This document shows positions 26,200-28,709 of a stretch of 64,000 nucleotides of DNA, one piece after another. This stretch comes from Halalkalibacter oceani (GTDB taxonomy: Bacteria > Bacillota > Bacilli > Bacillales > Bacillaceae_D): assembly GCF_023715605.1 (NCBI RefSeq), contig NZ_JAMBOL010000009.1, positions 62,001-126,000 on the forward strand. Reading direction: 5' to 3'. Position 1 is the first letter of the stretch. Every line of letters begins with the position of its first letter. Position numbers and translations under genes: made by a program. The notes beneath the pieces were generated by a model that had not been told where the DNA came from, did no database searches, and saw only the letters and a list, made by a program, of their open reading frames with translations.

Positions 26200-26700
26200 T
26201 CATCCAAGCCCGACTTTGTTGCTCCGTCTCTCTAACAGCACTGTATCCCGCCAAATCCCATTAAGCTGGGCAATTCGTTCCCGTCTGCCGATTTCCCGAA
26301 AACCATTCTTTTTATGTAGATGAAGACTGGCCTCATTTTCCGGAAAAACAGTTGCCTGTAATGTCCAATAGCCGTTTTCTTCTGTTACATTGATCAGGTC
26401 CCGCAGCAAACGAGCACCGATACCGATACCGCGCGCCTCCACTTTGACATAAACACTGACCTCGCCGACGCCTGCGTAAACACGCCGTTCGGAGACAGGA
26501 GACGCCTTGCTCCACCCAATAATCGTTTGCTCCTGCACCGCGACAAGACAGCAGGCCGGATTCGTTTGCTTAAGCCAGTTGTCATATTCCTCAGGGACTT
26601 TCGTTTCAAAGGTTGCCTTTCCCGTTTCAATTCCTGCCTCGTAGATCGCTCTCACCTGCTCCCAATCATCTCGCTTCATGGTCCGGATCGCAATGGTCAC
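26200..26700 (-). CDS. GNAT acetyltransferase, phosphinothricin-acetyltransferase-like
   Basis: 166-residue acetyltransferase of the Pat/YncA group. Motifs: IRTMKRDDWEQVRAIYEAGI at the N-terminus, VSVYVKVEARGIGIGARLLRDLI (~85-107, acetyl-CoA loop) and FPENEASLHLHKKNGF (~120-135). GTG 26700 has GGAGAG seven bases upstream; 18 further codons upstream are open but lack a ribosome site. Members acetylate phosphinothricin, methionine sulfoximine or similar amino acid analogues. Divergent from marR. Confidence 0.87.
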   Translation of the reverse strand: MTIAIRTMKRDDWEQVRAIYEAGIETGKATFETKVPEEYDNWLKQTNPACCLVAVQEQTIIGWSKASPVSERRVYAGVGEVSVYVKVEARGIGIGARLLRDLINVTEENGYWTLQATVFPENEASLHLHKKNGFREIGRRERIAQLNGIWRDTVLLERRSNKVGLG

Positions 26701-26748
26701 TTGTATCTCTCCTCTCAAAAAACGTTCCATTCTTAAAGTATACAACAC

Positions 26749-26777
26749 TTGCAAAATACAAATAAATAGAGTATAAC
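26749..26777 (+). promoter_or_regulatory. Promoter of marR with overlapping repeated motif
   Basis: TTGCAA (26749-26754) and TATAAC (26772-26777) are 17 bp apart. The segment TTGCAAAATACAAATAAATA (26749-26768) is almost repeated before the flavoprotein gene (27302-27321), differing only in three central bases, so it is a candidate MarR operator. Confidence 0.65.
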
Positions 26778-26796
26778 CATTTATAGGAGGTGCAAG

Positions 26797-27243
26797 ATGG
26801 AAAACAAAAGAGAATTATTCCAAACGATGACAAGGCGCTTTGGATTCCTCGACAAAAATTGCTGTTCCATTGGCGACGTCGATCTCTCCCTCGCTCAAAG
26901 TCATATCCTGTACGAAATTGATAAACAGCACGAACCATCAATGCAGCAAATTGCCGAAACGCTGGCAATGGACATTACAACCTTCAGCCGGCAAATTCAA
27001 ACACTTATTAAGCGCAACCTCGTTCTGAAAACACCCTCGGCGCACGACAAACGGGTATCAATCCTCTCGCTTACCGCGGAAGGAACATATGTCGCAACAG
27101 TAATCGACGAACGAATGAATGCTTATTTAGAAGAAGTGTTTTCTGATATGAATGAATTTGAAAAAGAAGTCGTCCTCCGTTCGATCAAACGTTTAAACGA
27201 AGCGATGGCAAAGGCGACGGTTTGCTGCCAGCCTTTGCTATAG
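26797..27243 (+). CDS. MarR family regulator with cysteine pair
   Basis: 148-residue winged-helix repressor: HTH and wing at ~45-95 (PSMQQIAETLAMDITTFSRQIQTLI ... HDKRVSILSLTAEG). Unusual cysteines are Cys22-Cys23 (DKNCCSIG) near the N-terminus and a CC pair near the C-terminus (TVCCQP). These suggest thiol or metal(loid) sensing. AGGAGGTG precedes the ATG. The flavoprotein gene follows 92 bp later in the same direction with the same upstream motif. Confidence 0.83.
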   Translation: MENKRELFQTMTRRFGFLDKNCCSIGDVDLSLAQSHILYEIDKQHEPSMQQIAETLAMDITTFSRQIQTLIKRNLVLKTPSAHDKRVSILSLTAEGTYVATVIDERMNAYLEEVFSDMNEFEKEVVLRSIKRLNEAMAKATVCCQPLL

Positions 27244-27301
27244 CACAATGAAGACAACGACAAGGCGCACCATTCCGGGCGCCCCTCCCCCTCTCATATA
27301 T

Positions 27302-27321
27302 TTGCATTTTACAAATAAATA
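27302..27321 (+). promoter_or_regulatory. Second copy of the MarR-associated motif
   Basis: TTGCATTTTACAAATAAATA directly before the ribosome site of the flavoprotein gene; 17 of 20 bases match the copy at 26749. The first 13 bases are an imperfect palindrome (TTGCA...TACAA). Confidence 0.55.
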
Positions 27322-27335
27322 ATAAGGAGTTTATG

Positions 27336-28709
27336 ATGAAAACAAAGCTTGAAATCCCTTTAACAACTAGCTGCTGTGAGCCGATCAGAAAACCGTTCTT
27401 CGAGGAACAAACCAGGCAGCCAGACCCGTCCCTCCCTGTAGCAATTATCGGCGCAGGACCAGTTGGGCTAGCCGCGGCCGCTCATTTAGCTGAGCGCGGG
27501 CACCCGTTTCTCATGTTTGAAGCGGGCAGCCAAGTCGGACACAACATCCACCAATGGGGACATGTCCGCCTCTTCTCCCCGTGGCGCTACAATATTGATA
27601 AAATTTCAGCAAAGCTGCTTTCCAGGCACGGCTGGAGCGTGCCGGACAAAGATGCTCTCCCCCTTGGCAAAGAGCTTGTGGAGCACTATTTGCGACCTCT
27701 CGCCGACCTGCCTGAAATCAAGCCATATCTATTCTTGAATACACGGGTAACGGCAATCAGCAAACAAAACAGCGATAAAATGAAAAATGCGAAGCGCCAT
27801 CAAACCCCTTTTGTAATCTATACCGAAAATAATAAAGGCCAGACAGAACGTCACCACGCAAAGGCCGTCATCGACGCCACCGGCACCTGGGGACAGCCAA
27901 ATCCCGCTTATGCCGATCAAGTCTGGACGAAGGAGGAACGCAGCCTTTCCGCTCATCTCACTTACGGAATTCCCGATATTTCCGGCAAAAACGAAAAGCG
28001 TTACCGCGGCAAACGAATTGCCGTCGTCGGAAGCGGTCATTCTGCCTTAAATACCCTGCTCGACCTCGCCAAATTAAAGGAATCCGCACCAGCGACCGAC
28101 ATCATTTGGCTGATGCGCAAGCAGCAGGTTGAGCAGGCATACGGAGGCGAAGAAAAGGATGCTTTACAGGCCCGGGGCGAGCTCGGCACCCGCATCCATC
28201 AGCTTGTTGACTCCGGCCTGATCGACGTCAAAACTTCCTGCTCTATTCAAGAGCTGAAAAAGGAGAATGGGACAGTGACAATCCACGCTCAAATCGACGA
28301 GCAGTCGACAACGATTCAATCGATCGATGAAATCATCGTCAATGCCGGCAGCCGGCCTGATTTTTCCTTTCTGCGCGAACTCCGGCTAAGCATTGATTCG
28401 GTGACGGAAAGCGTCGAAGCACTCGCTCCGCTCATTGATCCGAACTTGCACAGCTGCGGAACGGTTCGACCTCACGGGGAGCTGGAACTAAAGCAGCCGG
28501 AGGAACATTTTTATATCGCCGGCATGAAAAGCTACGGACGTGCCCCGACTTTCTTAATGGCAACCGGCTATGAACAAATCCGCTCGATCACCGCCTACCT
28601 TTGCGGTGATACCAGCGCCGCAAGACAGGTCGAGCTTGATTTGCCGGAAACCGGCGTCTGCCGTGTCACCCTCCCGGTAAATGACAGTCAGGCGGATTGC
28701 TGCAGCTAG
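27336..28709 (+). CDS. CzcO/ArsO-like FAD-dependent oxidoreductase with terminal cysteine pairs
   Basis: 457-residue flavoprotein of the NAD(P)-binding monooxygenase group (COG2072-like). FAD-binding GAGPVGLAAAAHLAERG at ~37-53, a central ATGTWGQPNP (~187-196) and NADPH-binding VVGSGHSALNTLLDLAKL (~230-247) are clear. The protein begins with a TSCCEP pair and ends in ADCCS, both outside the catalytic fold. Such pairs bind soft metals or metalloids. Relatives occur next to arsenic or cadmium/zinc/cobalt resistance genes, but none of those are here. The second of two adjacent ATGs (27336) is better spaced from AAGGAG. Confidence 0.83.
   Translation: MKTKLEIPLTTSCCEPIRKPFFEEQTRQPDPSLPVAIIGAGPVGLAAAAHLAERGHPFLMFEAGSQVGHNIHQWGHVRLFSPWRYNIDKISAKLLSRHGWSVPDKDALPLGKELVEHYLRPLADLPEIKPYLFLNTRVTAISKQNSDKMKNAKRHQTPFVIYTENNKGQTERHHAKAVIDATGTWGQPNPAYADQVWTKEERSLSAHLTYGIPDISGKNEKRYRGKRIAVVGSGHSALNTLLDLAKLKESAPATDIIWLMRKQQVEQAYGGEEKDALQARGELGTRIHQLVDSGLIDVKTSCSIQELKKENGTVTIHAQIDEQSTTIQSIDEIIVNAGSRPDFSFLRELRLSIDSVTESVEALAPLIDPNLHSCGTVRPHGELELKQPEEHFYIAGMKSYGRAPTFLMATGYEQIRSITAYLCGDTSAARQVELDLPETGVCRVTLPVNDSQADCCS

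Follow-up and report, generated by a model that had tools for sequence, protein, structure and literature searches.

A 64,000-nucleotide stretch of the Halalkalibacter oceani genome (contig NZ_JAMBOL010000009.1, positions 62,001 to 126,000; hereafter the window) contains a small locus that we consider a probable arsenical defence module, in which a cysteine-rich repressor of the MarR family, released from DNA by a trivalent and probably organic arsenical, would control its own gene, a flavoprotein gene and an acetyltransferase gene. The regulator gene, marR (26797-27243, plus strand), encodes 148 amino acids with an adjacent-cysteine (CC) pair near each end, Cys22-23 (DKNCCS) and Cys143-144 (VCCQP). 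An FAD/NAD(P)-binding flavoprotein gene follows on the same strand (27333-28709; 458 amino acids) and also encodes two such pairs, Cys14-15 (TSCCEP) and Cys456-457 (ADCCS). Divergent from marR lies a gene for an ArsN1-like GNAT acetyltransferase (26200-26700, minus strand). A preliminary description of this DNA had drawn attention to the cysteine pairs of the first two proteins and to a motif duplicated before their genes, with one copy on the marR promoter, and both observations hold. It had read the pair as a thiol- or metal(loid)-responsive module; the metal(loid) direction is supported by the arsenic genes found around relatives, which sharpen it to mostly organoarsenical compounds, but the module cannot be placed outside ars systems, as shown below.

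The regulator scored above the curated cut-offs of two MarR domain models (PF01047, 40.5 bits, cut-off 24.6; PF12802, 39.3 bits, cut-off 27). It falls short of the ArsR/SmtB model (HTH_metalloreg, 19.1 bits, cut-off 55), and it fails both the AdcR-type zinc model NF038251 (37.3 bits, cut-off 175) and the OhrR model (26.5 bits, cut-off 200). Random placement of four cysteines would give two adjacent pairs with P = 0.0017, and the other four clear MarR proteins of this genome (L207, L208, L209 and L211) have no CC pair. Of 398 genomes sampled within the class, 85 contain homologues (E ≤1e-15), as do 20 of 299 sampled from the phylum (a few of these inside the class) and 33 plasmid records. The class sample yielded 98 marR places, of which 80 were used as loci and the 18 weakest left out. 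Two proteins that first clustered with this MarR (L051_4 and L053_1) were excluded as other MarRs without the cysteines. Alignment of 93 homologues, drawn from 91 loci, revealed that Cys22 is kept in 90, Cys23 in 93, Cys143 in 88 and Cys144 in 83, so the cysteines on which the preliminary description had staked its reading are conserved among MarR orthologues. On conservation alone, these residues qualify as a set that could bind trivalent arsenic. AlphaFold2 models of the MarR and the flavoprotein (mean pLDDT 51.3 and 49.9) were too poor to place the cysteines, because the alignment held two sequences, those of the window and of H. oceani P106. Judged from the cysteines and the DNA site that its relatives share, and from the arsenic genes beside them, this MarR is probably an unrecognised arsenic sensor.

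The duplicated motif is a 20-mer, TTGCAAAATACAAATAAATA, at 26749-26768, with a 17/20 copy at 27302-27321; the two copies start 48 bp and 31 bp upstream of the marR and flavoprotein start codons, respectively. They are the sole matches in the window at three mismatches or fewer (shuffled mean 0.00), and two of just five such places in the whole genome (backward control, 0). Both copies reduce to the palindrome TTGCA-N3-TACAA, an arrangement that recurs across the MarR family. Between loci the arms of this palindrome are constant and its three middle bases vary. The 20-mer was rejected as the unit; without its AT-rich tail it is better read as a 13-bp palindromic operator. The first operator, O1 (TTGCAAAATACAA, 26749-26761), of the general form TTGYA-N3-TRCAA, stands between marR and the divergent ArsN1-like gene, and the second, O2 (TTGCATTTTACAA, 27302-27314), between marR and the flavoprotein gene, just 5' of the ribosome-binding site of the latter; neither is assigned a strand. 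In H. oceani P106 (L006), where gene order is identical and the flavoprotein and MarR are 87% and 89% identical to those of the window, the first 20-mer copy is unchanged (20/20) and the second has the core TTGCAATTTACAA.

O1 is conserved well beyond this species. An exact site lies within 150 bp upstream of marR in 71 of the 93 homologues, and a site with one mismatch in eight more, compared with 3 of 1860 shuffles (0.16%); among 705 other open reading frames (ORFs) of the same loci, the palindrome lies upstream of 5.4%, a figure that includes second operators. In most homologues O1 sits 46-53 bp 5' of the marR start codon. Its first hexamer, TTGCAA, coincides with the -35 box of marR, with a -10 matching TATAAT at five or six of six positions found 16-18 bp further on in 64 of 78 loci; in the window, the putative -10, TATAAC (26772-26777, plus strand), follows TTGCAA by 17 bp. 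Thus the regulator has an operator over its own promoter that is conserved across homologues, as the class of arsenical-responsive repressors would. On the other strand, the hexamer TATACT (26737-26742), also present in P106, is a possible -10 of the ArsN1-like gene, which would put O1 inside that divergent promoter as well. A distant MarR group that also adjoins the flavoprotein (L046, L049, L052, L054 and L055; 32-35% identity) has CC pairs or single cysteines and is without TTGYA-N3-TRCAA; a TTGAC-N4-TCAA-like palindrome covers the -35 box instead.

O2 likewise recurs: among 85 homologues with 44% identity or more, 64 have an exact site immediately 3' of marR, compared with 0.28% in shuffles. 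It is present in this form in 23 of 25 loci where the flavoprotein comes next, 19 of 20 where an ArsP-family permease does and 8 of 9 where ArsM does; it abuts the ribosome-binding site of the next gene, often with AATAC on its 5' side. A reading of O2 as a promoter in its own right, with the operator as -35 box, was rejected, with a good -10 behind it in 0 of 66 loci. O2 may instead act as a road block, as an operator at a transcription start site or as part of a longer site. In many loci a stem-loop lies 5' of O2, in a similar place though of differing sequence (L006 4915-4970, L136, L138, L141 and L146). When the 46 nucleotides on the 5' side of O2 were folded, z averaged -1.19, with 20 of 66 loci under -1.5 and the window at -0.8; an attenuator or a processing site between regulator and effector is possible. 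A generic scan for promoters and terminators in 26600-27400 missed the marR promoter; it returned a single promoter-like site (0.9 expected) and no terminators.

The genes next to marR indicate what the regulator is likely to respond to. Of the 93 homologues, 28 are directly followed by the flavoprotein, 20 by an ArsP-family permease, 14 by a GNAT of the ArsN1 cluster, 9 by ArsM, 3 by an ArsO-like protein and 1 by ArsI; two more have ArsR, three an unlabelled gene and 13 none. An organoarsenical-type gene (any of the first six) therefore directly follows marR in 75 of 93 cases. Identities were assigned with hidden Markov models on cluster representatives: ArsM scored 362.1 and 369.4 bits (NF008823, cut-off 263), ArsI 157.5 bits (NF041414, cut-off 116) and the ArsP-family permease 164.4 bits (PF03773, cut-off 32.3), a family that also includes other permeases; the TPFCSCS motif is kept in 22 aligned permeases. 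The encoded proteins have organic arsenic compounds as substrates or, in the case of ArsM, as products, with the reaction of ArsO unsettled and the GNAT placed by its cluster label. On a tree of 85 MarR proteins the kind of next gene changes at least 18 times over 66 labelled rows (shuffled mean 34.6), of which the well-supported branches of this short alignment force just 2-3 changes per kind.

Loci from outside the class, which had no part in finding the pattern, agree with it. Of 16 such loci, tblastn (1e-6) recovered the MarR in nine; the other seven, with matches of 33-35% identity, were excluded from the counts. All eight loci of at least 47% identity have an exact O1 and a MarR with CC near each end. 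O2 is exact in four of them and within one mismatch in seven; ArsM lies directly downstream in seven, and the eighth has ArsP further down. In the ninth locus (32% identity) the MarR has the two CC pairs, the sites carry one mismatch each and the next gene is ArsP. Two plasmid records labelled Stenotrophomonas rhizophila (CP065518.1 and CP031730.1; L093) carry a MarR and a flavoprotein with 67% and 57% identity to those of this Bacillota locus, which reflects either a recent transfer or a mislabelled record.

The flavoprotein, currently annotated as 'NAD(P)-binding domain-containing protein', matches Pfam Pyr_redox_3 (68.4 bits, cut-off 30). It fails the model for ArsO (NF040505, 56.6 bits, cut-off 425), although this is its best curated flavoprotein match by E-value, and that for the bacillithiol disulfide reductase YpdA (TIGR04018, 48.7 bits, cut-off 339.9); there is no ArsV model among its NCBIfam matches. 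Across 70 long homologues, Cys375 and Cys443 are invariant (70/70) and the C-terminal pair is nearly so (Cys456 and Cys457, 65/70 each). The expectation that its cysteine pairs would be conserved thus holds for this pair but not for the N-terminal one, whose residues are found in about half of the homologues (33 and 35 of 70). Of 299 genomes sampled within the order, 35 encode the flavoprotein, and tblastn detected relatives in 126 plasmid records, including those of Streptomyces, Rhodococcus and Rhizobiales.

To the extent of seven ORFs, we examined the surroundings of the flavoprotein in 37 loci (the window, P106 and 35 others). A core ars gene (ArsR, ArsB, ArsC, ArsA, ArsD or Acr3) is present in 32; the five loci without one are the window, P106, L048, L050 and L058. 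A GNAT of the same cluster is present in 19 of the 37, a MarR of the window kind in 16 and an MFS exporter (by Pfam) in 10; the window itself has neither core ars gene nor MFS exporter in this reach. The preliminary statement that the usual ars genes are missing is therefore nearly literal at this locus, but it misleads because the divergent gene is ArsN1-like and 32 of 37 flavoprotein loci have core ars genes. The picture of a two-gene module outside ars systems falls for the same reason: homologues lie in or beside ars operons, and the ArsN1-like gene is a third part that had been missed. Arrangements on plasmids include GNAT-ArsR-flavoprotein-ArsK (Ensifer), ArsR-flavoprotein-MFS (Shinella), MarR-ArsN1-flavoprotein-ArsD-ArsA (Pseudomonas nitroreducens) and flavoprotein-MFS in Roseomonas (with PadR), Rhodococcus and Streptomyces. 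Within two genes upstream of the flavoprotein, the regulator is a window-kind MarR in 16 of 37 loci, an ArsR with a C-terminal CC in 13 and another in 8; the use of one position by two unrelated CC-bearing families speaks for a common inducer. Further CC-bearing regulators in this position are the MarR of the P. nitroreducens plasmid (L205 4916-5413), with CC near both ends, and the Roseomonas PadR (L091 6520-6942), with one CC, before flavoprotein-MFS. A conserved protein of some 70-80 amino acids (MVINxGGxLxKEYFxxYxxLIMN...) is encoded after the flavoprotein in seven loci (L037 7714-7935, L038 7669-7914, L045 7677-7901 and four others); the one member scanned had no Pfam match. Poultry litter, chicken and duck are the sources of the staphylococcal plasmids that carry the flavoprotein (L089, L206 and plasmid hit H20), and a link to organoarsenical feed additives would be a guess.

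The best curated model for the divergent GNAT is NCBIfam ArsN1a (NF040503), which denotes arsinothricin resistance, at 144.6 bits; ArsN1 gives resistance to this compound according to the published account (PMC6465285). Other members of its cluster fall on both sides of the cut-off of 170, with L037 (206.1) and L170 (220.5) passing and L185 (127.6) failing. Its reading frame is listed as 26200-26754 with a TTG start at 26754, overlapping O1; the GTG at 26700, which lies behind GGAGAG, is more likely to be the start. The genome has two further ars loci. One (L075, C31 8178-10840) encodes an ArsR with a C-terminal CC, a VOC protein of the ArsI/CadI family, ArsB and ArsC, and the other (L076, C28 8348-10037) ArsR-ArsB.

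Three features suggest that the MarR is a repressor which a trivalent arsenical releases from DNA: it has conserved thiols towards each terminus, its operator overlies its own promoter, and its targets share a class of substrate. We infer that a MarR dimer would bind O1 over its own -35 box as well as O2 before the flavoprotein gene, and would so repress itself, the flavoprotein and, via O1, the divergent acetyltransferase gene. The inducer would be a trivalent arsenical, most likely organic (methylarsenite or a reduced arsinothricin, for example), bound by the CC pairs towards the two termini of the MarR, which presumably sit in the dimerisation part of the fold; the loaded dimer would then leave DNA. 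The induced flavoprotein, which we propose is an ArsV-like oxidase of trivalent organoarsenicals, would use NAD(P)H, FAD and oxygen to convert its substrate to the far less toxic pentavalent form, with the C-terminal cysteine pair handing the arsenical in. The acetyltransferase would disarm arsinothricin-type compounds.

Several described systems come close to this module. ArsV of Paracoccus sp. SY is reported to be an NADPH-dependent flavin monooxygenase that oxidises organoarsenicals and antimonite and is paired with the exporter ArsW. The flavoprotein resembles it in lying in ars loci (32 of 37), often beside an MFS exporter (10 of 37, and also on alphaproteobacterial and actinobacterial plasmids), a likeness drawn from described function and gene context rather than from sequence comparison; the window differs in having no adjacent MFS exporter and in having a MarR as regulator. 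ArsO-like proteins, which share the same ars loci, are a separate group of about 350 amino acids that co-occurs with the 458-residue kind in some loci (L042, L048, L133 and L145). AdcR and ZitR are zinc-co-repressed metal sensors of the MarR family, to whose model NF038251 the window MarR stays under the cut-off, and the ligands differ. A C-terminal cysteine pair is described as the methylarsenite-binding mark of ArsR (PMC6514093), and it is ArsR proteins so marked that take the place before the flavoprotein in 13 loci; the MarR belongs to another protein family and has two pairs, one near each end. NemR is described as a TetR-family repressor selective for trivalent organoarsenicals (PMC10080717). 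Like the MarR as proposed here, it is a non-ArsR repressor with an organoarsenical inducer, but it is a TetR protein of enterobacteria whose target is nemA.

Several observations weigh against an organoarsenical module. The GNAT of the window lies under the ArsN1a cut-off (144.6 versus 170), and an exact O2 is found in just 1 of 9 loci where a GNAT comes first. No -10 with five or six matches lies behind O2, and none lies at the usual spacing in front, with a -10 in front possible in 31% of loci. Genome-wide, the palindrome TTGYANNNTRCAA is not enriched (11 places versus 10 for the backward control); what sets it apart is its conservation and its position, with two copies within 553 bp, one at each gene start, not its rarity. 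A search of this genome for ArsM and ArsP homologues, run without a positive control, gave no match; with an ArsR(CC)-ArsI-ArsB-ArsC locus and neither of these detected, the bacterium would be exposed to methylated arsenic or arsinothricin that its neighbours produce. Finally, the runs downstream of the 93 marR copies include ArsC in 15 and ArsB in 10. These genes, together with the use of As(III) by ArsM, keep inorganic arsenic in play as inducer. In that case the MarR would sense As(III), and Sb(III), through a three-sulphur site built from the four thiols at the dimer interface, much as ArsR-type As(III) sensors use neighbouring cysteines, and the organoarsenical genes would belong to a general arsenic response that, after some marR copies, extends to ArsR-ArsB/Acr3-ArsC genes. 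We consider this unlikely, if far from negligible: most genes that immediately follow marR are organoarsenical ones, efflux and reductase genes in many marR loci stand under a separate, often divergent ArsR (e.g., L141, L147, L148, L168 and L170), and in this genome the ArsR-ArsB genes lie elsewhere with an ArsR of their own.

An arsenical-responsive MarR could also be paired with a flavoprotein that is not an oxidase of trivalent arsenicals but, say, an enzyme reducing or cleaving adducts of arsenic with thiols. The reaction of ArsO, the closest curated model to the flavoprotein, is not firmly known in the source consulted (PMC12607644), the four conserved cysteines of the flavoprotein could serve reductive chemistry, and ArsH, another ars flavoenzyme, is described as working in the reductive direction in Paracoccus (PMC9137774). 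The ArsV-ArsW-like pairing of the flavoprotein with an MFS exporter, seen in 10 of the 37 loci and also in several further phyla, argues for oxidation, and we regard a different reaction as unlikely, if far from negligible. We give very little credence to a third alternative, a general sensor of thiol redox state or electrophiles, of the MarR type exemplified by OhrR, QsrR and HypR, coupled to a flavin disulfide reductase. Vicinal cysteines can form disulfides and the flavoprotein does match the YpdA model, but it does so weakly and far under the cut-off, the MarR falls below the cut-off of the OhrR model, and the neighbours are overwhelmingly arsenic genes. Cd(II), Cu(I) and diamide had been put forward as inducers besides As(III), and nothing in the sequence or context results points to them.

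Organoarsenical sensing by ArsR and by NemR of the TetR family is already known, as are metal sensors of the MarR family; among the papers listed in our literature searches, whose coverage excluded subscription papers, we found no description of a MarR-family organoarsenical sensor. On balance, we lean slightly towards a broader interpretation, in which this MarR belongs to an undescribed, Firmicutes-wide family of organoarsenical sensors with four conserved cysteines, carried in a portable operator-marR-operator-effector cassette that has repeatedly been fitted with a flavin oxidase, an ArsP exporter, an ArsM methyltransferase, ArsN1, an ArsO-like protein or ArsI. Methylarsenite is thought to be an arsenic-based antibiotic among soil microbes. 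Arsinothricin is likewise thought to act as one between them (PMC6465285). If the MarR family is the sensor, then how Firmicutes perceive such compounds and switch on arsM, arsP and the newer flavin oxidases becomes directly testable. Organoarsenical sensing would then have evolved in a third protein family, besides those of ArsR and NemR (TetR), and arsenic biosensors would gain a new part. The flavoprotein now annotated by its NAD(P)-binding domain would gain a name and a role, and in many Firmicutes arsM and arsP would be switched chiefly by this MarR family.

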